Assembly: GCF_028728065.1 (NCBI RefSeq)
Contig: NZ_CP117812.1
Coordinates: forward strand, 1,798,001-1,862,000
Source of the DNA: Lentisphaera profundi
GTDB taxonomy: Bacteria > Verrucomicrobiota > Lentisphaeria > Lentisphaerales > Lentisphaeraceae
Direction of reading: 5' to 3'
DNA length: 64,000 bases
A program made the translations under genes and the position numbers. Positions 11,761 to 49,945 of this stretch are shown here, one piece after another. A model generated the notes under the pieces. The model saw nothing but the letters and a program-made list of their open reading frames with translations. It searched no databases and was not told the origin of the DNA. The first letter of the stretch is position 1. Every line of letters starts with the position of its first letter.

Positions 11761-12591
11761 ATGACTATTATAATTCTCTTAATTTCTAGCTTGCTTGCCT
11801 TCCTTTTAGCCAGGCGAAAATTTATATTTCAAAAAGAATACTTGAGTCGGAATAATGCGGTCCATAAAAATATTGCGATTGTTTCCATCTTTGTTTTTAT
11901 TGCCTTCTTCGGTCTCATTTTAAGAGTCTTATCTCTTAATTACAACTATGCTCACCAACTGCCCTTACTTGCCCAAGCCTATGCTATTGAGACTTTCATT
12001 TTTGGCTTAAACTCTCTACTCGTCTTCTCTTCGACTTTATTACTTTTCATTGTTTTTAAACAAAAAAGTGATCGCCTAAGTACCTGTATCGCTACTAGCT
12101 TCATTCTTCTTTCAATCAATAGTATTTATCTCTATCACACGAGAAGTCCAGAAATCAAAGACCTTAAGTATGGTGTCATGACACTACAAAGTGATGCCAT
12201 GAGTTGTGCGGCCGCTTCCCTATCAAACATCTCTACCTATTACCAAATGCCTATTAGCGAGCAAGACGCCGCCACCGCCATTAAAACTACTGTGCAAGGT
12301 AGCTCACCCGCGCAAATTGTTCTGGGTGCTCGTCAATTAGGGTTTCATGCAGAAATTTTCCACAATACTAAGATCAAAGATCTGAGATACCCCAGTATGC
12401 TCTTTGTGGATGCTCCCTTGGGCCGAGAAAAACACGCCTTAGTTATTATGAAGAAAATCGACAATTTTTACATCAATAACTTAGGACTGTTTTATGAAGT
12501 TTGGGATCCCGAAAAAGGACCTGTCTATTGGAGTAAAGAACTTTTACAATCCCGCTGGCATGGTAATGGCGTCTACATAAAGCCAAAGTGA
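11761..12591 (+). CDS. Membrane-anchored C39-like cysteine peptidase
   Basis: Four hydrophobic segments (about residues 2-20, 36-58, 75-99 and 106-126) precede a papain-fold C39-type domain (about 135-276). The catalytic set is visible: Gln in LQSDAMSC with Cys149, His225 in KHALVIMK and Asp249 in YEVWDPEKG. C39 peptidases cut after double-glycine leaders of bacteriocins or peptides and are usually fused to an ABC exporter; here there is no ABC module and no neighbouring exporter or leader-peptide gene. Cys-Ala-Ala replaces the usual Cys-Gly after the motif. The ribosome-binding site is weak. Cleavage activity is plausible and the substrate unknown. Confidence 0.72.
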   Translation: MTIIILLISSLLAFLLARRKFIFQKEYLSRNNAVHKNIAIVSIFVFIAFFGLILRVLSLNYNYAHQLPLLAQAYAIETFIFGLNSLLVFSSTLLLFIVFKQKSDRLSTCIATSFILLSINSIYLYHTRSPEIKDLKYGVMTLQSDAMSCAAASLSNISTYYQMPISEQDAATAIKTTVQGSSPAQIVLGARQLGFHAEIFHNTKIKDLRYPSMLFVDAPLGREKHALVIMKKIDNFYINNLGLFYEVWDPEKGPVYWSKELLQSRWHGNGVYIKPK

Positions 12592-12819: not shown

Positions 12820-13596
12820 ATGAAAAAGTTTTCACTGATTGAGTTGCTAATTGTTATCGCTATAATCGGGATTTTAGCTTCTTTACTTGCCCCTGCTCTA
12901 AGCAAAGCACGCAAAACCTCCAAAATGGCCGTATGTCTTAGTACACAACGACAAATTGGCATTGCTATTCAAATGTATACGTCGGATAATAAGAGTTATT
13001 ATCCCGCTGCTCACGGAAATTATGGCTGGGATGATATGATCACATCTTACTACGGACTCCCATGGACTGATGCAGATAAGCAAGAAATCGCCATGACTAA
13101 TACCAACTATAGCTATACCAAACTGCAATGTCCTTCAGATAATGTCGAATCGGCATCCGCTGCTAGGTTTCGAAAGTCCTATATCGTCAATGACTACCGT
13201 TCCACAGGAAACTGGAGTGTCGGTGTTATCGGTCGTGAAGACAGTGGCAATACAAATCCAAGTCAAGATCGTCTTTCGGAGTCCATGCAAATCACAGCCG
13301 TAAGCAATGCGAGTCGTACAATTGTCCTCGGGGAACACTGGAACAAATGGAACTTTGCAGGTGGAGGCGGTGATCAATCCCATGGAACTTCAGGCTATTT
13401 TTATCGGGAATTCATCTTCAATCCCAACTCAGCGGCCGCCGATAAAGTCTCTAATCATTTTGGTAAAGGCGAGAGTAACTTCAGCCTAGTGGATGGCAGT
13501 TCAAGAAGAATGAATTCTTATCAAGTTCTAGAAGGCACCCCGATTTCTTCAACTTTAAGTAATTTCCAAGGTTCTTGGTTCGATAGCCAGCAGTAG
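12820..13596 (+). CDS. Pseudopilin-like protein next to a sulfatase
   Basis: A three-residue leader (MKK) precedes the [18 protein letters not shown] pilin helix. The rest is a 230-residue globular domain with conserved AVCLSTQRQIGIAIQMYTSDN early on and NFSLVDGSSRRM near the end, the DG part of the H-X9-DG family signature. It is larger than the other pseudopilins in this window. The residue before the cleavage-site Phe is Lys. The RBS AAGGA lies 8 bases upstream. It converges with a sulfatase gene 32 bases away and could belong functionally to the polysaccharide locus that follows, but that is inference. Confidence 0.85.
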   Translation: MKKFSLIELLIVIAIIGILASLLAPALSKARKTSKMAVCLSTQRQIGIAIQMYTSDNKSYYPAAHGNYGWDDMITSYYGLPWTDADKQEIAMTNTNYSYTKLQCPSDNVESASAARFRKSYIVNDYRSTGNWSVGVIGREDSGNTNPSQDRLSESMQITAVSNASRTIVLGEHWNKWNFAGGGGDQSHGTSGYFYREFIFNPNSAAADKVSNHFGKGESNFSLVDGSSRRMNSYQVLEGTPISSTLSNFQGSWFDSQQ

Positions 13597-13628: not shown

Positions 13629-15083
13629 CTAGTGTTTTTTATTTGATGGCTTTTTGGGATTTTTCTTGCGATCTAAACGCTTTTGCGTTGATCGCAAACC
13701 CTGCTTGCGATAATTGCCTACCGATTCTTCCATCGCTAGCATTTTACCATGAAGCTCTTTTGTCTTCTCAGGCATTTGCTTACTCAGGTCTTTACGTTCA
13801 CCAGGGTCATTTTCTAAATCGTAAAGTTCTATAGAGTCTTCATCAAACCATTCATGAATTTTATATTTCCCTTCTGTGTAAGCCATTCCGCGAGTATCGC
13901 CAGTACTATCCGGTCGCGCTGTATGTGAATACCAAAACATGCCATCACGTTGATAATCGTCTCCTTTTAAAGCTTTAAAATAAGTTCTGCCATCTATATG
14001 CTGTTTAGGCTTAAGATCTAAGCCCGCCATTTGCAAGATTGTCGGATAGTGATCCACTCCAATTGTTTGAACATGGCTCACTGTTCCTGCTTTTATTTTT
14101 TTAGGCCATCTCACGATATGTGGTACTCGAATACCACCCTCATAGACCCAGCCTTTGCCATGGCGATAAGGTAAGTTTGATGTAGCTAAAGGACGATTAT
14201 TATTCAAACCTCTAGAAGAGAGCCCTCCATGATCTGAGGACAGAATGATGGCTGTATTATCCGCTATTCCCAAATCTTCTAAAGTTTGCATGATTTTGCC
14301 TAGGCTGGTATCCACACTTTCGATCATGGCAGCGTAATTTGGATTATTCTGCACAGTCTTATAAATACCTGTGCCATCTTTTACTAAATCTGCATCATCT
14401 TTAGTCCCACCTTCAGACAGGCCCAATCTTTTAAGTTTTTGACGATATTTCTCTACTAAATCTTTCTTGCCTTCTAAAGGGGTATGCACCGCATAAGGAG
14501 CCATGACTAATAGAAAAGGCTGATCTTTTTTCTCACGAATAAATTCACAAGCTTCATCACGTAGTAAATCTGTGAGATAATCACCTTCTTTTCCCTTAAC
14601 GGGATTTTCAACACTATGACCTTTTTCCACTGGAAAGGGATAGAAAAAACTTCCCGTTGCACCAGCATGTCCCGTGTGAACTATATGATCAAAACCTTGC
14701 TTACTGGGATCTTGACCTTCATGCCCTAAATGCCATTTACCTATATAGGCCGTGGAATAACCTGCATCTTTTAAGGCTTCACCAAAAGTTATTTCTTCAA
14801 ACGGCAAATGTTGCTTGGGGTAGGCTTGGACATCAAAACGACTTGGGTATTTACCAGTCAACAAAGCCTGACGCGCCGGTAAACACCGTGGGAAAGCTGT
14901 ATAAGCGTTATTAAATTTCATTCCACCTGCAGCCAAGCGATCCATATTGGGCGTCTCGTAAAATGAGCTACCATTGCAGGAAAGGTCTTTTACCCCAAAG
15001 TCATCCACATAGAATAGAATTATATTGGGCTGCTCTGAAGCGAATAGTGTAAAACTAAAAAGTAATAATGTTAAAATTTTCAT
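13629..15083 (-). CDS. Secreted sulfatase (formylglycine-type, family S1)
   Basis: A signal peptide (first ~16 residues) leads into the alkaline-phosphatase-fold sulfatase domain. The metal-binding VDDFG (Asp27, Asp28) and the active-site motif R-C67-L-P-A-R, then LLTGKYP, are clear. Cys67 would be converted to formylglycine by a maturase not in this window. The CxPSR motif has Ala in place of Ser, a tolerated variant. Later metal ligands appear in SSDHGG. The C-terminus ENDPGERKDLS is typical of arylsulfatase A-like enzymes, and a basic Lys/Arg-rich tail ends the protein. It is divergent from the next sulfatase gene, with a 180-base promoter region between. The substrate is unknown; context suggests a sulfated polysaccharide. 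Confidence 0.93.
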   Translation of the reverse strand: MKILTLLLFSFTLFASEQPNIILFYVDDFGVKDLSCNGSSFYETPNMDRLAAGGMKFNNAYTAFPRCLPARQALLTGKYPSRFDVQAYPKQHLPFEEITFGEALKDAGYSTAYIGKWHLGHEGQDPSKQGFDHIVHTGHAGATGSFFYPFPVEKGHSVENPVKGKEGDYLTDLLRDEACEFIREKKDQPFLLVMAPYAVHTPLEGKKDLVEKYRQKLKRLGLSEGGTKDDADLVKDGTGIYKTVQNNPNYAAMIESVDTSLGKIMQTLEDLGIADNTAIILSSDHGGLSSRGLNNNRPLATSNLPYRHGKGWVYEGGIRVPHIVRWPKKIKAGTVSHVQTIGVDHYPTILQMAGLDLKPKQHIDGRTYFKALKGDDYQRDGMFWYSHTARPDSTGDTRGMAYTEGKYKIHEWFDEDSIELYDLENDPGERKDLSKQMPEKTKELHGKMLAMEESVGNYRKQGLRSTQKRLDRKKNPKKPSNKKH

Positions 15084-15263
15084 ACTGACTTGATCATCCT
15101 GTATAGTTTGTTGATTTCATAATACATAATCGCTAACAATATAATAAGTTTGACAGCCTTAATCACTTTTCAGCTAAATAAAAAGGCTACTTAGATGAAA
15201 GTTCATGTCAAAAAATGCTTAAGGAGCGACATTATTCATACAAACAAACCATTTGGAACTTCC

Positions 15264-16649
15264 ATGATCAAAACTTTCATACTTATTTGTACACTTTTAC
15301 CTTTTGCACTGAGTGCAAAAAATCCTAATATTTTATTCATTGCTATTGATGACTTAAAACCTGAATTAGGTGCCTACGGCTACACCCAAGTTAAAAGCCC
15401 CAATATTGATCAACTAGCCAAAAGCGCGACTACTTTTACTAATGCCCATTGTCAGTGGGCTGTTTGTGGACCTTCACGTGCTAGCTTAATGACGGGACTC
15501 TACCCAGAGAGCACAGGCGTTATGGATTTAAAAACAAAAATGCGCTCTATCAACCCGGACGTGCTCACTTTGCCTCAACATTTCAAGAACTCGGGCTATT
15601 TCACTGCCGCCACCGGAAAAATTTATGACCCACGATGTGTCGATGGCAGAGAAAAAGATGATGCCGCATCCTGGAGCATCCCTTACAAAGGTGTGAATTA
15701 TGGAAAAGTTAAACTTAAAGACGGAAAACGCTTTGCTCTAGCACCTGATATTGCTGACGAAGATTTAACTGACGGTCAAATTCTTTTAAATGGCTTAGAA
15801 CTACTTAAGCAGGCCAATGAACAAGAGAAGCCTTTTTTCCTTGCCGTTGGTTTTAAAAAGCCTCACTTAGCTTTTGTTGCACCAAAGAGATACTGGGATT
15901 TATATGATCGCAATAGCCTTACACTTCCCTCTTTTCGTGAGCAAGCTCAAGGTGCGAGTCCTTATGGTTGGCATGATAGTAATGAATTGAGAGGCTATGA
16001 CGGCATCCCTAAAAAAGGCCCCATCCCCATGGAACTCCAAAAAGAAGCCTTCCATGGTTACTTGGCTTGTGTCTCCTATATTGATACTTTAGTTGGCCGT
16101 TTAATTAAGAGACTTGATGATCTAAACTTAAGAGAAAACACCATTATTGTCCTATGGGGCGACCACGGCTTCCACCTGGGCGATCACAATATGTGGGGTA
16201 AACACACCAACCTGGAACAAGCTACACGAGTTCCATTAATCATTTATATTCCTGGGCAAACGGCGAATCAGAGTTCGACTCCTGCTGAACTCATGGATAT
16301 GTATCCCACCCTATGTGATGCCGCAGGAATAACTACACCGAAAATCGTTCAAGGGGACAGTCTTTTAAAAGTTATCAAAGGCACTGAGAAACAACATCAG
16401 AATGGCGCTATTAGTTTCTTCAAAAGCAAGGGTGCTAAAGGTTACTCATACCGTACTCAACGTTACCGTTATATCGAATGGATCAAAGCCAATAAGGTCG
16501 ATGCCATAGAACTCTATGATTACGAACAAGACCCCGGCGAAACGCTGAACTTAGCTACTAACAAGGATTACGCCGCTCTTATCAAAGAACTCAGTACACA
16601 ACTTCGTGAAGATGGTCAAGGCTGTAAACTTATGTACAAAGTCAAGTAA
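15264..16649 (+). CDS. Secreted sulfatase, iduronate-2-sulfatase-like
   Basis: A signal peptide (MIKTFILICTLLPFALSA) is followed by AIDDLKPELGAYG and the canonical sulfatase motif C68-G-P-S-R, then LMTGLYPES. GDHGFHLGDHNMWGKHTN contains the second set of metal and substrate residues and is typical of iduronate-2-sulfatase-like S1 enzymes. I start at ATG 15264; an upstream ATG at 15195 would add 23 residues before the signal peptide. GGAA lies upstream of ATG 15264. The stop is one base from the start of the GH10 gene, so the genes are co-translated. Confidence 0.93.
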   Translation: MIKTFILICTLLPFALSAKNPNILFIAIDDLKPELGAYGYTQVKSPNIDQLAKSATTFTNAHCQWAVCGPSRASLMTGLYPESTGVMDLKTKMRSINPDVLTLPQHFKNSGYFTAATGKIYDPRCVDGREKDDAASWSIPYKGVNYGKVKLKDGKRFALAPDIADEDLTDGQILLNGLELLKQANEQEKPFFLAVGFKKPHLAFVAPKRYWDLYDRNSLTLPSFREQAQGASPYGWHDSNELRGYDGIPKKGPIPMELQKEAFHGYLACVSYIDTLVGRLIKRLDDLNLRENTIIVLWGDHGFHLGDHNMWGKHTNLEQATRVPLIIYIPGQTANQSSTPAELMDMYPTLCDAAGITTPKIVQGDSLLKVIKGTEKQHQNGAISFFKSKGAKGYSYRTQRYRYIEWIKANKVDAIELYDYEQDPGETLNLATNKDYAALIKELSTQLREDGQGCKLMYKVK

Positions 16650-16650
16650 A

Positions 16651-18132
16651 ATGGCACATCCAAGTAAAGGCGCACGCAAACGGAGACCTAAGACGAAACC
16701 CCAACAAACAAGTTCTCCTTTACTGAAAGGGGTCAAAATCCTTTTGGTCCTTATTCTCATCTCCTTTATCTGCCTCTGTCTTCTCTGGGACCAAAATAAA
16801 CCTGAGAAAGTAACGCTAGCGAATACTGCTAAAATTGCCTATAGTCAGCTGACTGATAGATCGGGTCAAATCCCAAAGCAATACAAAGACATTTCTAGAC
16901 TCATTGAAACACAAAAAGCTAAACCTTGGTTCAAACAAGCTCAAAAACGTATTGAAGAACATAGGAAAGCTGACCTCGTGCTCGTTTTAATTGATGCCAA
17001 TGGTCAAAGACTCACTCCAACTGACGTGAAAATCAATTTAGATAGCCACGAATTCCATCACGGTGGGATTATCAGTCTATGGCAGTTTCATGGGGAGCGT
17101 AAAACTGGGAAACCTTATATCGACCCTAAGATTTATCGTTCCAAATTCCTCGAACTTTACAATGCTACGGGCTTTAATAATGCCTTTAAATATAAACTCA
17201 AAAAAAGCCATGAAACACTTATCCCAAAAGCAAAACAATGGTTAGAAGAAAAAAACATCCCCTTGCGTGGTCACACCTTAATTTGGCCCGGAGAAAAACA
17301 TTTACCCAAAGAAATTTTAGCGAACAAAAATAACAAGACGAAATTACGTCAGGCGACCAACAAAGTAATTCGCACTTGGGCTCAGAAGTGGGACCTCTAC
17401 GAATGGGATGTCATCAATGAACCCAGAACTAATCACTTGCTTCAAGATACTTTAGGCCAAGGTGAAGAAGCTAAATGGTTTAAACTCGCACAAAAATCGT
17501 CTAAAAACCCCAATGTAAAACTCTACCTCAATGAGTACCAAATCATCTCAGGTACTAAAGACAAGTTTAAAGATCTATATGAGCAAAATGTCCAGAAGCT
17601 CCTTGATCAAGGTGCGCCACTCCATGGATTAGGAGTACAAAGTCGCTATAAATTCAATCTTACACCAGAGCAAATTTATCAAGCACTAGAACGTCTCAGT
17701 AAATTTCAACTCCCCATCAAAGGCACTGAATTCGAAGTTGCTGATTTAAAAAGAAAGCTTTCTGATCAAGAAAGAGCCAAAATCACTTTTGAAGTTGCTG
17801 CGACTTATTTTAGTCATCGCTTGGTTCACGGCCTCTATGTTTGGACGATATTTCAGTCCTCAACTCATGCTGAAGTCAACGGGAAACCAAGCTGGGGACA
17901 CTCTTCTTATATGATCAATAAGGATGGCAGCTTAAAAGCTAATGGTTTAGTTTGGAAATATCTCTTCAAACAACTTTGGGTTACTCAAGGAAGCATAAAA
18001 AGCGATGCTCAAGGACTCATTAAAACTCGTGCTTTCAAAGGGCAGTATACCATTAGTTTTAAATATCGTGGAAAATCATTTACGAAAAAAATCCAATTGG
18101 ATAAAGATAAAATAGTTGAAATTAAAATCTAG
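16651..18132 (+). CDS. Membrane-anchored GH10 endo-xylanase-like glycoside hydrolase
   Basis: After a basic N-terminus comes one transmembrane segment (about residues 28-47), then a long periplasmic part. The GH10 barrel is recognised by LRGHTLIWPGE, the acid/base motif DVINEP (Glu257), YLNEYQ, GLGVQSRY, the nucleophile motif TEFEV (Glu360, where most GH10 have TE[LF]D) and YVWTIFQSSTHAE. A short Ig-like beta domain ends the protein (FKGQYTISFKYRGKSF). GH10 enzymes cut beta-1,4-xylan. It begins one base after the sulfatase stop and is followed by an SGNH esterase seven bases on. The frame upstream of ATG 16651 overlaps the sulfatase and is not used. Confidence 0.87.
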   Translation: MAHPSKGARKRRPKTKPQQTSSPLLKGVKILLVLILISFICLCLLWDQNKPEKVTLANTAKIAYSQLTDRSGQIPKQYKDISRLIETQKAKPWFKQAQKRIEEHRKADLVLVLIDANGQRLTPTDVKINLDSHEFHHGGIISLWQFHGERKTGKPYIDPKIYRSKFLELYNATGFNNAFKYKLKKSHETLIPKAKQWLEEKNIPLRGHTLIWPGEKHLPKEILANKNNKTKLRQATNKVIRTWAQKWDLYEWDVINEPRTNHLLQDTLGQGEEAKWFKLAQKSSKNPNVKLYLNEYQIISGTKDKFKDLYEQNVQKLLDQGAPLHGLGVQSRYKFNLTPEQIYQALERLSKFQLPIKGTEFEVADLKRKLSDQERAKITFEVAATYFSHRLVHGLYVWTIFQSSTHAEVNGKPSWGHSSYMINKDGSLKANGLVWKYLFKQLWVTQGSIKSDAQGLIKTRAFKGQYTISFKYRGKSFTKKIQLDKDKIVEIKI

Positions 18133-18139
18133 GAATCAT

Positions 18140-19249
18140 ATGAAATTATTTTTACTTCTCAGCCTTAGTTTCACCCAACTCATCTTCGCTGATCAAACCC
18201 TATCAGCATCTAGCAACACCTATAGTATTAGAGGTGCTAACTATAGCCGATTGATAGATCAAGGCATGGAATTTAGACGTTTTCCGCTAGAATTTCAAAA
18301 ACTGAACTCTCGAGAATTAGGTTTTAACATAAAAAAAGCCGAAACAACTTCAGGCGCCAGTATTTTATTCACATCAAATAGTGCAAAAATCAGCATTAGC
18401 TTCACCATCCCCGAAGAAAGTGAAAACCGCGGATCTGACTTCGCCCTTTACATCAATGGACAAGCGAAAAGACTCTACAGTTTCAAAAAAACTGAGTCCA
18501 TACAAATTAAAATGGCTAATCCCTTTCCTGGAGATGAAACCAGTTATGAACTCGTGCTCCCAAGCTTTTCTAACCCTATTCTAGAGCGCTTTACTATTGA
18601 TGACAAATCTTATTTAAGAGCAGATAAATCAAAACAACTAAAGAAATATCTAGCGATAGGTGATTCTATCTCACATGGCGTGGGACAAGATTCAAAATCA
18701 TATAAAACCTACCCCTTTATCCTATCTAAAAAGTTAAATCTACAAATCTATAACCTTGCAGTTGGAGGAGGAAAAATATCACCTGCCGTCGCCGAATGCT
18801 TAAGTGACTTTAAAAATGTTAAACTCATCACGATACTCATAGGCTATAACGATTTAAACTTCCAAGGAAAGTCCGTCAATCAATATATCGAGCAATACGA
18901 TGCTTTCATTCAAAAAACACGGACGGCTCAACCCACAGCCAAAATATTTTGTATTAGCTTACTCTTCACAAAAAACACTGCATCACCAAAGACAAAAATC
19001 ACTCCTGACGAATACCGCATTGCCTTGGAACAGTTCATCAATCAAAAACGACAAGAAGGCGATAAAAACATTCATTTCATTGCCGGAGATAGCATCACAT
19101 CCGAAAAAAATCTCCGCCCTGAATCTTCTGACCCTGTACATTTAGGTATTGATGGTGCAGCAAAATTTGCTCGAGAATTAGAAAAAATTATTGCTCCATT
19201 TCTTAACATAACTACAAAAAACTTGCCTCAAGGCCGGAAATCCATCTAG
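18140..19249 (+). CDS. Secreted SGNH/GDSL esterase, carbohydrate-esterase-like
   Basis: A signal peptide (MKLFLLLSLSFTQLIFA) is followed by a beta-sandwich region (about residues 20-165) and then an SGNH hydrolase domain. Blocks visible: GDSISHG with Ser176, NLAVGG, IGYND, and DPVHLG with Asp331 and His334. A beta-sandwich plus SGNH is the layout of CE2-type acetyl-xylan esterases, which remove acetyl groups from xylan or related sugars. It lies seven bases after a GH10 gene with an AGGA RBS, so a role in deacylating the same polymer is likely. Exact ester specificity cannot be read from sequence. Confidence 0.8.
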   Translation: MKLFLLLSLSFTQLIFADQTLSASSNTYSIRGANYSRLIDQGMEFRRFPLEFQKLNSRELGFNIKKAETTSGASILFTSNSAKISISFTIPEESENRGSDFALYINGQAKRLYSFKKTESIQIKMANPFPGDETSYELVLPSFSNPILERFTIDDKSYLRADKSKQLKKYLAIGDSISHGVGQDSKSYKTYPFILSKKLNLQIYNLAVGGGKISPAVAECLSDFKNVKLITILIGYNDLNFQGKSVNQYIEQYDAFIQKTRTAQPTAKIFCISLLFTKNTASPKTKITPDEYRIALEQFINQKRQEGDKNIHFIAGDSITSEKNLRPESSDPVHLGIDGAAKFARELEKIIAPFLNITTKNLPQGRKSI

Positions 19250-45284: not shown

Positions 45285-48200
45285 TTATTTAATTTCTTTT
45301 AAACTTAAAGATCTACTAAGACCAGACTTACATTCAATCTCCAATAGACTCACACCTCTATCATAGTTCACCACTAGCCCAGGCTCCTCACTCGCCCACT
45401 CACCTTTCAAGATCAAATTTATCTTTGATACTAAACTTCTGCCAGAAAGCCGTTTTTTGTCCTCAGCCAAGGCATCATTCACATCTGGATCGGCTACAGA
45501 AAGTGTGATACCTTCTTGCGACCTTTGCATCGTGATTAAACAGGGATTAGAAACTTTCTTAATTATTAGTTTTTCAAATTCAACTTTATCAAAAACCGCC
45601 ATTGCTAAAGTTTTTGACTGAGTATCGTATATTGCATGCACCTTGCTATCTCTTCGTAATATTTTTGTCTTCACTCCATCCCGCAATATAGCGTCAGGCC
45701 AAACCTCATAAGCATAGCTTCCGCCACGGGGGTTTTTCCCATGATCAATAACGGCCGATGCAAACAAACCTTCCCCAAACTTCTCTTGCCCTAAACGACC
45801 ACGGTGCATATCATCTCGCCTCATAGAATATTTATTATTGGGACTTCTTTGTTTTTTAATGCGTACATTCAGATCTGCCGCTTCTAGAAAATGGTATAGA
45901 TTGCCCTTACCATCTTTAAGCCAATCGCCCTGTTTCACTTGAATATTTTGCTCTGGCACCTGAACGTCAGCACTTATTCCAAAACTATTTTCAAGCTTTA
46001 CACTATCCTCTGAAGCATGCTGAAATAAAACTGTACTCGTGGGATAAACCTCTTCGCGACTGCGTACCTGACTCCCTAGACAAATCAGCCGATCTCCAAA
46101 GGCAAAGACAGATTTAAATGCTTTTAAACGCCCTTCTAAGCCCATACTATTTAGATACATAGCAAAAACACCATTATCATTCACTTTGAGTGAGCCCGCA
46201 AAAGAAGAGCCAGACATATACATCAGTGTTGAATCTTTTTTGGGCTCCAATTTTTCCGCGGGATATTCAATGACTGTAGCACCCGGTACCCGACACCAAT
46301 CCCAACCCGCTTCAACATAGCCATCGGCCTCATTACCTTCTTTCATAATCTGGACACTGCCATTGGAATGATAGCGCCCATAGCGATTATCCTTAGTATA
46401 TATCTCAGATGACCACACGTTTTTACTATAGCCTTTCACCGATGCCATCCAACTAGAACGGCGATGCACCATCAAGTCTGCATAAGGAAAAGCCCAGTTG
46501 CCACTTAAAACTTCCGCTTCTATCTTCTCCTCTTCAAAAACTTTTGCGAGCTCCGCATTCTCTACATTTCCCCAGAGACGTCTATACGCTGCGGCAAGTT
46601 CTTTATCCAAGCTCTCACGACCATCAGGAGTCCCTGCTAGAGCTAAACTTAAAAAGCTATTCTTCAGTCCGTTAATATTACCATGTAAAGGATGACGCCC
46701 AGAAAGCCCAATTCCCCAATCAAATTTTTGGGAGTATACTCTTGACGCAAGCAGGGCTCGACGGAAATTGCTGTGCCCCTCTGACCATATGCTAAAACTT
46801 GTTCCGTGAAATGCCTGAAAAAGTTTCCCCACACTGGTAAATGCACCTACACCATAAGCAGGATAATGCCCTCGGTGATGCCAGGAGGTACCGTCAATTT
46901 TAAAAACTCCACGCTCATCAGTATAAGATAACGTTTTTCCCAAATGATAACTAAATAGCTCTATATTCCTATAAGCTTTTGTTTGGTCGGGACAGATCGA
47001 CAAGGCCATGAGTCGATGAATGGCTATTGTATTAAGATAATCAATATTCGCTTTAAATTGACTTTCGTCTGCATATACTTCTCCTGCATTCATAAACCAG
47101 CAAAGATCACGGTAAACCTCTCCCAATAAATGATGTGAAGCAATTAAATCTCGTGCTATATACATGGCCCTCACGTAATTGCGGAATTGATAACCCAAGT
47201 GATGCAGTGTCCCCTGTGAGCTTCCGCACTGAAATCCTTGGTCGCGAGTATACCTCAATCCCGCTATAAAAAGTTCTTCAAATAAGTATTTGTCATCATC
47301 ATTTGCTGTCCGCCAAGACCTTGCCAACTCTAATTGATAAATCCAAAAAGCATCAAAATCCACCGCTTTTATTTGTAGATTTTTAGCTCTTTTATAATGA
47401 ATAGTTTTATACTGAACTGCTAGCTTCAAAGGCAAGCTGGTAATGATACCCTGCTTATACATCAAACCTAAACTCTCTAAACTAGCCAATGCTTCTGCAT
47501 AAGTGCGTTTCGACACTACATTAACTTCTTCATCTAAATTGGATTTCAATCTTGCAATACTTTGCTGATCAACTTCACTGACTTCATCAGCTACTGCTTG
47601 ATCAATGAGTCCCATCAGCTTTAAATGAGGCATCCAATGATCGCTATTTATCTCTTGATCCTTTTTTACAAAAGGCGCTTGGAATGACTGATACTGATGA
47701 CGATCATCAGCAAACTGCGAAAATACGATATCATCGAAATAAATTCGTCCACCATCACTGCCTTGAGGGGCTTTTATAATGCAAGTATCAATTTCAAATT
47801 CTTGACGTTTCTTACTTGGGCCCCCTCGCATGTCGTAAAAAGGAATCCATAGAGTTCGCCAACCCACAAAATTTAGGTTTAAATCGAAATCTGCTTGCTC
47901 ACCTTCGGGACCAAAGAAAGTGAAATTCATTTTCTCATCTATCGCTTTTTCATTGTATAAGCTCATGATAAAAGTTGGACTCTGTGCTGACCCCTGCCCT
48001 ACAACCTTACTTTCTTCTTTATTGAGCGCACGAATTCCATTCACTTCTAATTGAGCATTCTTTTTCCAATCCCATTGAAATGATCTTTCACCAAACTGGA
48101 TTTTTCTTTTACTCGCAGAAATAGAGGAGTTCTCCGCTGTGAAGTAATAAAAATCATCATCACTCTCAAAAGAAAAGACACTGCGTTTATCCGCTTTCTT

Positions 48201-48344
48201 TTTCCAAGCTTGGTAAATCTTTGAATCTACATCTGTTTCATAGCCGACATCCTCAGTTCTTTGAGACTTAGAAGGCGCTTGGGTTTCTGTTCGACATGAT
48301 GCGAATAATAAAATTACACAGATTGATAAATAAATGTTTTTCAT
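45285..48344 (-). CDS. Chondroitin ABC-type lyase (polysaccharide lyase family 8), lipoprotein
   Basis: A lipoprotein (lipobox FASC near residue 17) of about 1019 residues. The first ~210 residues are a CBM-like jelly roll (QFGERSFQWDWKK, then NLNFVGWRTLWIPFYDMRG), as in Proteus vulgaris chondroitinase ABC I. The alpha-toroid catalytic part holds WHHRGHYPAYG with His490 and Tyr497, SGRHPLHG with Arg550, and NVWSSEIYTKDNRYGRY with the catalytic Glu; these correspond to His501, Tyr508, Arg560 and Glu653 of that enzyme. C-terminal beta domains follow. It should cut chondroitin or dermatan sulfate by beta-elimination. ATG 48344 follows AAAGGA; ATG 48350 is possible. The sulfatase gene is 71 bases upstream. 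Confidence 0.93.
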   Translation of the reverse strand: MKNIYLSICVILLFASCRTETQAPSKSQRTEDVGYETDVDSKIYQAWKKKADKRSVFSFESDDDFYYFTAENSSISASKRKIQFGERSFQWDWKKNAQLEVNGIRALNKEESKVVGQGSAQSPTFIMSLYNEKAIDEKMNFTFFGPEGEQADFDLNLNFVGWRTLWIPFYDMRGGPSKKRQEFEIDTCIIKAPQGSDGGRIYFDDIVFSQFADDRHQYQSFQAPFVKKDQEINSDHWMPHLKLMGLIDQAVADEVSEVDQQSIARLKSNLDEEVNVVSKRTYAEALASLESLGLMYKQGIITSLPLKLAVQYKTIHYKRAKNLQIKAVDFDAFWIYQLELARSWRTANDDDKYLFEELFIAGLRYTRDQGFQCGSSQGTLHHLGYQFRNYVRAMYIARDLIASHHLLGEVYRDLCWFMNAGEVYADESQFKANIDYLNTIAIHRLMALSICPDQTKAYRNIELFSYHLGKTLSYTDERGVFKIDGTSWHHRGHYPAYGVGAFTSVGKLFQAFHGTSFSIWSEGHSNFRRALLASRVYSQKFDWGIGLSGRHPLHGNINGLKNSFLSLALAGTPDGRESLDKELAAAYRRLWGNVENAELAKVFEEEKIEAEVLSGNWAFPYADLMVHRRSSWMASVKGYSKNVWSSEIYTKDNRYGRYHSNGSVQIMKEGNEADGYVEAGWDWCRVPGATVIEYPAEKLEPKKDSTLMYMSGSSFAGSLKVNDNGVFAMYLNSMGLEGRLKAFKSVFAFGDRLICLGSQVRSREEVYPTSTVLFQHASEDSVKLENSFGISADVQVPEQNIQVKQGDWLKDGKGNLYHFLEAADLNVRIKKQRSPNNKYSMRRDDMHRGRLGQEKFGEGLFASAVIDHGKNPRGGSYAYEVWPDAILRDGVKTKILRRDSKVHAIYDTQSKTLAMAVFDKVEFEKLIIKKVSNPCLITMQRSQEGITLSVADPDVNDALAEDKKRLSGRSLVSKINLILKGEWASEEPGLVVNYDRGVSLLEIECKSGLSRSLSLKEIK

Positions 48345-48415
48345 TTTCATTCCTTTGTTTAAAATAAAGCTTTTGAAGCCAAGCACAAGAGACTAGACAA
48401 TTCCGAAGTCTCTTT

Positions 48416-49912
48416 TTAATCTTTTTGGACTAAAGTTTTTTCCCAAGCTTTAAAACGGCGACGCATTTCGTTCACCTTCTCGGGGTAATCATTAATTAAA
48501 TTGATTTTTTCTCCAGGATCTTTTTCTAAATCGTAGAGGAACTCACCTAATTCGAGCTCCACCATTTCTAGTTTTGCATCATCATTATTACTCACCGATT
48601 TATACTTCCAGTCACCCCGGAGCATCGCTTTCTCATGCCCACTATGCCAAAAAAAGTTACGCTCTTTATCATCTAATAACTGCAGAGCAACACCATCTAA
48701 AAAATCTTTTTTCTCTTCGCCTAAAAGCTCTACAATAGTAGGATATATATCTAAAAGACTTACTTTTTGATCAAGTCTTGTATTTCGAAAACCCTTAGCG
48801 TAAACAATAATCAAAGGAATCCGTATCCCTCCTTCGTATAAGGTATATTTACTCCCTCGTAAGGCTCCATTTGAGGCATAAATTGGCGTGGATCCACCAT
48901 TGTCACTGGCGTAAATAATCATCGTTTTTTCTTTTATTTCCAAATCACTTAAGATATCTAAAATTTTGCCAATTTCACGATCCATATATTCGAGATGGCC
49001 TAGATAGTACTCACGACCCTGAGGATTATTGGGATAACGTCCTTTTTTATACCACTCCAGATAATCTTCTTTTTCGGGGTCCCAATCCTGTACACTATTA
49101 AGCTTATGCTTACTCAAATAGCTTTTCGGCAGCTGATGAGTAAAGTTGTGCACCGCATTAAACGATAAGTGCAGAAAAAATTTATCCTGCTTATGCTTTT
49201 TTATAAAAGTTCGAGCTTCTTTACCAAAAATCTCCGTCGCAAAACCTTTGACTTCAACTTTCTGCTTATTCCTCCAAAAACTCCCTTTCTTTAATGTCTC
49301 AAATTTTGCAAGGCTCGTGCCTCCTTTGACGGGATTGGCACTTGAGCGATTTGCTCGCTTTTGTCCTGCGATAAATTCGCTCTCTAATTCATCATCATGA
49401 GATAAATAATGCTTGCGCCCTCCGCAAAAGCCAAAAAATTCATCAAAACCGTGATTTAAAGGGAAATCCACAGAATGAGGATCACTACTTCCATAATGAA
49501 CTTTTCCCACATAGCCCGTGGCGTAAGCTTGGCCCTGTAAAAATTCTGCCAAGCTTGCACTTGTTTTATGTTTCATTCCAGGGTTACTATACCAATAAGC
49601 TCCGAGTTTTGCTTGATGAATACCTGTCATCAATGCTGTTCTTGATACGTTACAAATAGGAGCGTTCGCATAAGCATGAGTGTAGTAAGTACCTTCATTG
49701 ATGAGTCTGTCTATCGCGGGTGTTTCTACATCATCATGAATCCCCAAAACAGAAATATCAGCACAGCCGTGATCATCTGCTACCATGAGGATAATATTCG
49801 GATGTTCTAATGCACTTAAATAGAATCCGAACAGAGTACACAAAACAAGTATGTGCGACTTGATAGAAATTTGAATATGTACTCTGCTCAAATTCTGTAA
49901 AATATTTTTCAT
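48416..49912 (-). CDS. Secreted sulfatase of the chondroitin-lyase locus
   Basis: A signal-anchor or signal peptide (residues ~20-35) precedes the sulfatase domain with VADDHG and the active-site motif Cys87-N-V-S-R, then ALMTGI. The usual Pro after the second residue is Val here. Metal and substrate blocks ASDNGG and the DPGEKINL ending are typical. It probably desulfates a glycosaminoglycan such as chondroitin or dermatan sulfate, inferred from the adjacent PL8 lyase. The longer frame to 49945 begins in the operator; the real start is ATG 49912 with GGAG upstream. The lyase start is 71 bases downstream. Confidence 0.9.
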   Translation of the reverse strand: MKNILQNLSRVHIQISIKSHILVLCTLFGFYLSALEHPNIILMVADDHGCADISVLGIHDDVETPAIDRLINEGTYYTHAYANAPICNVSRTALMTGIHQAKLGAYWYSNPGMKHKTSASLAEFLQGQAYATGYVGKVHYGSSDPHSVDFPLNHGFDEFFGFCGGRKHYLSHDDELESEFIAGQKRANRSSANPVKGGTSLAKFETLKKGSFWRNKQKVEVKGFATEIFGKEARTFIKKHKQDKFFLHLSFNAVHNFTHQLPKSYLSKHKLNSVQDWDPEKEDYLEWYKKGRYPNNPQGREYYLGHLEYMDREIGKILDILSDLEIKEKTMIIYASDNGGSTPIYASNGALRGSKYTLYEGGIRIPLIIVYAKGFRNTRLDQKVSLLDIYPTIVELLGEEKKDFLDGVALQLLDDKERNFFWHSGHEKAMLRGDWKYKSVSNNDDAKLEMVELELGEFLYDLEKDPGEKINLINDYPEKVNEMRRRFKAWEKTLVQKD

Positions 49913-49930
49913 AAGTAAAACTCCATAAAA

Positions 49931-49944
49931 TACCAACGTTGGCA
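49931..49944. promoter_or_regulatory. LacI-type operator before the sulfatase-lyase unit
   Basis: TACCAACGTTGGCA has the perfect core CCAACGTTGG and one mismatch from a full palindrome. It lies 19-32 bases upstream of ATG 49912. The same word, one base different, precedes the pseudopilin pair at 45218-45231. Confidence 0.78.
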
Positions 49945-49945
49945 A

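Follow-up and report, generated by a model that had tools for sequence, protein, structure and literature searches.

A recurring sulfatase, GH10 and esterase gene set in Lentisphaera profundi and its divergent Arg/Glu GH10 clade

Sulfated xylose-rich polysaccharides are often predicted to be marine carbon sources, and in the literature passages available to us we met no demonstrated endo-hydrolase for them. The link between sulfatases and GH10 proteins is already known in print: genes in which an S1_7 sulfatase is fused to a GH10 were reported in Pontiella F1 and F21, and the authors suggested that the sulfatase, too, may be specific for xylan (van Vliet 2019, PMC6388578). Here, we describe a set of four separate genes, encoding two sulfatases (s1 and s2), a GH10 protein and an SGNH esterase, in a 64,000-nucleotide stretch of the Lentisphaera profundi genome (NZ_CP117812.1, positions 1,798,001 to 1,862,000; the whole stretch is called the window). 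Synteny, co-occurrence across phyla and gene fusions support the four genes as a recurring functional set, and the GH10 falls in a clade with an altered active site. We propose, at a probability of roughly 0.55, that the set forms a module acting on a sulfated and acylated glycan that contains xylose.

A GH10 clade with an Arg/Glu pair

The GH10 protein of L. profundi resembles its family in fold. The structures nearest to its AlphaFold model (mean predicted local distance difference test score, pLDDT, 77.9, from 5 sequences) are 7d88 and 8b73, both TIM-barrel GH10 structures, and the model aligns with 7d88 over 348 residues (Z 36.8, root-mean-square deviation 2.4). All 124 GH10s of our alignment retain the catalytic residues Glu257 and Glu360, the Asn preceding the acid/base, and Trp398 of the active site. 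At three positions the protein departs from its relatives, with Asn176 for the usual Glu, Arg332 for His and Glu362 for Asp, so that both the family His beside the nucleophile and the Asp two residues after it are absent. We take Asn176 to stand at the position of Glu43 of Cellulomonas fimi Cex, in the minus-2 subsite, and Arg332 presumably at that of Cex His205; in work on Cex, the replaced His reportedly contacts the nucleophile. One PDB title describes a Cex E127A/H205N mutant with covalent cellobiose.

The substitutions go together. Among 122 sequences, 25 have Arg with Glu, 91 have His with Asp and 6 pair His with a different residue or with a gap, while Arg with Asp and His with Glu are both absent (0 each). 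Glu occupies position 176 in 85 of 97 His-type sequences versus none of the 22 Arg-type sequences that have a residue there. Four further Arg-type genes from genome searches were added to give a set of 124, in which L014, L079_2 and L092_2 had already been left out as duplicate or fragments. In a tree built from this set (LG+G4 model), the Arg-type sequences form one clade of 28 with support 100, even with the three trait columns masked. Position 332 is Arg in 28/28 members and His in 96/96 sequences outside; position 362 is Glu in 27/28 members (L152 has His) and Asp in 92/96 outside. Among the Flavobacteriaceae, 1 of 397 genomes sampled carries a GH10 of this clade, and no match of this GH10 group in that family has an open frame with room for a sulfatase fused to it.

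The sequence-only reading of this locus had held that the GH10 acts on xylan. That activity was carried over from the family name, and the altered catalytic neighborhood of the clade undercuts it. Judged by its sequence, the protein is a GH10 homolog of a divergent group and not an ordinary xylanase, and annotations of the Arg/Glu GH10s as plain endo-beta-1,4-xylanases are probably wrong. The active-site changes suit a substrate that is charged or unusual in some other way. We weighed the simpler idea of an ordinary endo-xylanase that works with sulfatases and an acetyl esterase on sulfated marine xylan. Family membership, the fold match to GH10 xylanases and published ‘sulfated xylan’ loci with GH10s and sulfatases (PMC6794258, PMC6298971) are in its favor, but the altered residues are common to the entire clade, and Pontiella sulfatireligans F21, which carries a GH10-S1_7 fusion, was reported to grow on xylose and not on beechwood xylan (PMC7356697). 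We therefore regard an ordinary xylanase as quite unlikely.

As the GH10 N-terminus is basic and is followed by a hydrophobic helix at residues 23-48 of the model (the most hydrophobic 19-residue window, at residue 27, has a mean hydropathy of 2.9), a membrane anchor that places the catalytic domain outside the cytoplasm is plausible. Tethering to the membrane and cleavage in the periplasm, as suggested from the sequence before, are thus plausible on the basis of this predicted helix.

Recurrence of the gene set

The genome of the window (5.46 Mb, two contigs) has genus-mates that include Lentisphaera marina IMCC 11369. In all three Lentisphaera genomes compared, the four genes lie in the same order and on the same strands, surrounded by housekeeping genes, and a single nucleotide separates s2 from the GH10 gene. 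Sequence identity between the orthologs is 81-83% (s1), 78-80% (s2), 61-65% (GH10) and 71-73% (SGNH protein). By open reading frames (ORFs) and Pfam matches, we recovered the sulfatase-sulfatase-GH10-SGNH cluster that had been described here, including its divergent second sulfatase and its spacing of one to seven bases: 1 nt from the s2 stop to the GH10 ATG and 7 nt from the GH10 stop to the SGNH ATG.

We then counted neighbors within 10 kb of the GH10 at 25 Arg-type loci and 68 other GH10 loci. The genus was counted once (as L053); the window, L013/L014 and the second clade gene of L119 were left out; and L015 and L019 were represented by the wider stretches L052 and L151. A sulfatase of any kind is present at 18/25 Arg-type loci compared to 7/68 others, although the rows are related by kinship and Fisher values therefore overstate certainty. 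An s2-like (S1_7-type) sulfatase is found at 13/25 versus 2/68, both of those 2 lying within Arg-type loci; an s1-like sulfatase at 5/25 versus 1/68; and a homolog of the L. profundi SGNH esterase at 7/25 versus 0/68. For Verrucomicrobiota and Planctomycetota alone, as identified by record title, the corresponding counts are 12/18 versus 5/40 (any sulfatase), 9/18 versus 2/40 (s2-like), 3/18 versus 1/40 (s1-like) and 5/18 versus 0/40 (SGNH).

Fusions are stronger evidence of association than these counts. A GH10 and a sulfatase share one polypeptide in P. sulfatireligans F21 (L058) and Pontiellaceae B12227 (L056), and an SGNH domain is joined to an s2-like sulfatase in L056, L102 and L059. Searching with the SGNH esterase alone, we found matches in 8 of 288 genomes of the phylum, 6 of them outside the genus. 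Three of these 6 (G081, G227 and G172) have an Arg/Glu GH10: the esterase, an s2-like sulfatase and the Arg-type GH10 lie together in G081 and G227, and the esterase of G172 is 19 kb away from the GH10. A fourth, G232, has s2-like and s1-like genes adjoining its esterase. The fusions and the recurrence across phyla argue against chance neighbors in a sulfatase-rich genome. The genome does encode at least 151 sulfatases, as such a coincidence would favor, but two or more sulfatase starts fall in just 2.9% of its random 5.6-kb windows, a lower bound based on 150 of the 151 matches. We consider chance extremely unlikely.

Other neighbors of the Arg-type genes include GH94, GH1, GH3, GH5 and GH29 proteins, a GH51/GH39-like family, sugar symporters and a TonB receptor, and they fit more than one polymer. 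GH94-type phosphorylases, which matched no NCBIfam model, adjoin Arg/Glu GH10s in L054, L067 and L151, with a tandem pair in L151 (12695-17617). Proteins of a family distantly related to GH51, GH39 and GH79, each about 600-790 aa long, occur in L176, L181, L086, L062, L067, L063, L071 and L056; the nearest sequences to these GH39-like proteins are GH51 arabinofuranosidases and GH39 beta-xylosidases, which does not decide their substrate. A 735-aa protein between the sulfatases of G232 was also considered for this family; Pfam identifies it as a protein kinase, and it was taken out of the alignment.

Sulfatases, esterase and candidate substrate

The best PDB chain for s2 is 6hhm (E 9.5e-77), followed by human iduronate-2-sulfatase (5fql/6ioz), in keeping with the iduronate-2-sulfatase-like enzyme first recognized here. 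6HHM is P18_S1_7, which removes the 2-sulfate from xylose in ulvan (PMC9096561), and both it and iduronate-2-sulfatase are placed in S1_7 (PMC9096561, PMC6388578). Reviews disagree on how S1_7 enzymes act, endo according to PMC9096561 and exo according to PMC8360166. Ulvan itself was considered as the substrate, since S1_7 fits, and was set aside: no ulvan lyase or GH105 was found among the neighbors annotated.

For s1, the best chain is the S1_16 kappa-carrageenan sulfatase 9fo1 (E 6.1e-101), with 6ust second; both are named S1_16, and Trp79 and His149 are features of that subfamily (PMC11760155). The equivalents of both residues are missing in 10/10 aligned sequences (s1 and 9 relatives). 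As Trp79 is said to block the pocket (PMC11760155), its loss suggests that s1 may accept larger substrates.

The esterase was correctly read as CE2-like at the level of fold. Its model (mean pLDDT 84) has an N-terminal beta-sandwich and a C-terminal SGNH domain, and Foldseek ranks SsfX3 (3skv, 1.9e-26) first, then 4lhs and the CE2 enzymes 2waa (E 7.9e-20), 2wao and 4dev. The protein matched no CE2 Pfam model at E 0.01 and scored 16.4 bits with NCBIfam AxeC2, for which the cut-off is 500.

From these assignments we infer a substrate, the positions of its sulfates, a role for the Arg and an order of steps. Oligosaccharides of a sulfated, acylated, xylose-containing glycan would reach the periplasm, where s2 would strip sulfate from xylose, probably at O-2, s1 would strip a second kind of sulfate and the CE2-like esterase would take off O-acyl groups. 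The anchored GH10 would then cleave the beta-linked backbone by the usual retaining mechanism with two Glu residues, its nucleophile supported by the Arg/Glu pair and not by His/Asp, and with the usual minus-2 Glu missing. The Arg/Glu pair may assist where a charged sugar lies close to the scissile bond. Xylose would feed central metabolism through xylose isomerase, which the genome encodes.

The earlier proposal of a sulfated, acylated xylan holds up in part. The functional set, the kinship of s2 with a xylose-2-sulfatase and the CE2-like fold speak for it; an s1 nearest to S1_16 without its two markers and the failure of F21 to use beechwood xylan do not bear out a xylan as such, and the GH94, GH1 and GH3 neighbors would also suit a polymer with beta-glucosyl units. 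We conclude that the set probably breaks down a sulfated xylose-containing polymer and not ordinary xylan.

Several observations weigh against a xylose-containing substrate or a dedicated set. S1_7 includes iduronate and carrageenan sulfatases as well (PMC6388578, PMC9096561), and known S1_16 enzymes act on galactose-4-, GalNAc-4- or GalNAc-6-sulfate (PMC11760155). G232, a genome of the Lentisphaera family, has esterase, s1-like and s2-like genes close together but no such GH10, and at 7 of the 25 Arg-type loci the surrounding 10 kb are free of sulfatases. None of the remaining six GH10s in the L. profundi genome has the Arg, and each of them, too, has a sulfatase no more than 10 kb away, several within 1 kb; because this holds for all seven, sulfatase adjacency alone is not special in this genome. 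Finally, GH94, GH1 and GH3 proteins beside some clade members suggest beta-glucosyl units.

This last point bears on a different sulfated beta-glycan, such as a sulfated mixed-linkage glucan or a glucose-containing heteroglycan, in which the GH10 would cut beta-glucosyl and not xylosyl linkages. Besides the GH94 genes adjoining three Arg/Glu GH10s, a GH1 beta-glucosidase in L063 and a BglX-like GH3 in L057 would suit such a polymer, red algae are listed with sulfated mixed-linkage glucan (PMC4807772), and PDB titles have cellobiose bound by the GH10 Cex. The Lentisphaera cluster and most clade loci have no GH94, however, and among solved structures s2 is nearest to a xylose-2-sulfatase (PMC9096561), and we judge a glucan-type substrate unlikely. 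Alternatively, the set could remodel or recycle a sulfated exopolysaccharide of the cell's own instead of an algal food glycan. A cluster without a transporter gene, housekeeping surroundings in all three species and an anchored GH10 would suit that role, and titles and references mention exopolymers made by Lentisphaera and Pontiella; the TonB receptor, sugar symporters and catabolic hydrolases beside clade relatives point the other way, making it very unlikely in our view.

For the xylose-containing glycan we favor, a more general claim can be put forward tentatively, at somewhat less than even odds: the Arg/Glu GH10s may be a separate functional group that hydrolyzes sulfated or anionic xylose backbones directly, with the Arg-Glu pair setting the nucleophile and binding a charged group. 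Their recurrent partners would be an S1_7 sulfatase dedicated to this role, an S1_16-like enzyme that lacks the Trp closing the pocket, and a CE2-like esterase. The clade, whose members share a consistent change in the active site and are connected through operons and fusions with particular sulfatases and an esterase, offers a short list of candidates for assay.

The Lentisphaera locus and described systems

The features of the locus are collected in the table. For s2, the ATG at 15264 is the more likely start, since it yields a signal-peptide start resembling that of the s2 ortholog. Promoter and terminator patterns at the locus are at chance level; the region between the divergent sulfatases holds 10 promoter-like matches, compared to 14.2 expected from shuffles.

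Table. Features of the four-gene set, in window positions
Feature	Position	Strand	Basis
s1, secreted S1 sulfatase nearest S1_16	13629..15083	-	PF00884, 195.9 bits; Cys-type formylglycine site CLPAR
Shared intergenic region of the divergent sulfatases; possible two-way promoter region	15084..15263	.	Read from sequence
s2, secreted S1 sulfatase, S1_7 type	15264..16649	+	PF00884; longest ORF from 15195; formylglycine site CGPSR
GH10-family protein of the Arg/Glu clade, membrane-anchored (predicted)	16651..18132	+	PF00331, 97.1 bits (cut-off 22.1)
Helix predicted to anchor the GH10 in the inner membrane, residues 23-48	16717..16794	+	Model helix and hydropathy peak
GH10 Asn176 codon (Glu in ordinary GH10s)	17176..17178	+	Alignment
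GH10 Glu257 codon, acid/base, motif WDVINEP	17419..17421	+	Aligned in 124/124 GH10s
GH10 Arg332 codon, in place of the family His	17644..17646	+	Alignment
GH10 Glu360 (nucleophile) and Glu362 (in place of Asp), motif TEFE	17728..17736	+	Glu360 in 124/124
Two-domain secreted esterase, beta-sandwich and SGNH hydrolase, CE2-like	18140..19249	+	PF13472 (Lipase_GDSL_2), 64.9 bits

Several features of the surroundings were also recorded. A pseudopilin-like protein (12820-13596, +) adjoins s1 and has 134 matches in the genome. Of the 122 stronger of these (the weaker left out), 54 have a listed sulfatase no more than 5 kb away; circular shifts predict 22.6, and none of 1000 shifts exceeded 39. Next to this pseudopilin is a membrane protein with a C39-like peptidase domain (11761-12591, +), kept in both genus-mates, and pseudopilins also come after the esterase in the sister-genus genome G232 (L174). 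The sulfatase neighbors of the six other GH10s (G000:C2 and C1, L047-L051) include s2-like ones, at 37-41% identity. Elsewhere in the window (45285-49945, -), a polysaccharide lyase family 8 protein adjoins a sulfatase, likely a pair for sulfated glycosaminoglycans.

How does this locus compare with described systems? The Pontiella F1 and F21 fusions likewise link an S1_7 sulfatase to a GH10, and L058 comes from F21; the available passages of the paper (PMC6388578) make no mention of the Arg/Glu site, an esterase partner or the unfused Lentisphaera operon. A description of the Arg/Glu site was not found in the open-access literature searched, and the divergent GH10 clade together with its recurring partners looks new. 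In North Sea Bacteroidetes, loci with ‘sulfated xylan’ as their predicted target share GH10s, some with a sulfatase domain, and also contain GH3 and more sulfatases (PMC6794258, PMC6298971). Those loci carry SusCD, whereas a Pfam scan of 17 of the 53 window ORFs (ORFs of at least 150 aa) detected no TonB or SusCD families, in agreement with the absence of a SusCD-like pair noted from the sequence.

The individual proteins also differ from their closest solved structures. P18_S1_7 (6HHM), closest to s2, works in an ulvan pathway with lyases, and no such lyase is seen in the Lentisphaera cluster. AMOR_S1_16A (9fo1), the kappa-carrageenan sulfatase closest to s1, has the Trp79 loop and His149, both of which s1 and its 9 relatives lack. 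The thermostable xylanase XynA (7d88), the closest GH10 fold, keeps the family His and Asp, whereas the Lentisphaera GH10 has Arg332 and Glu362 in their place.

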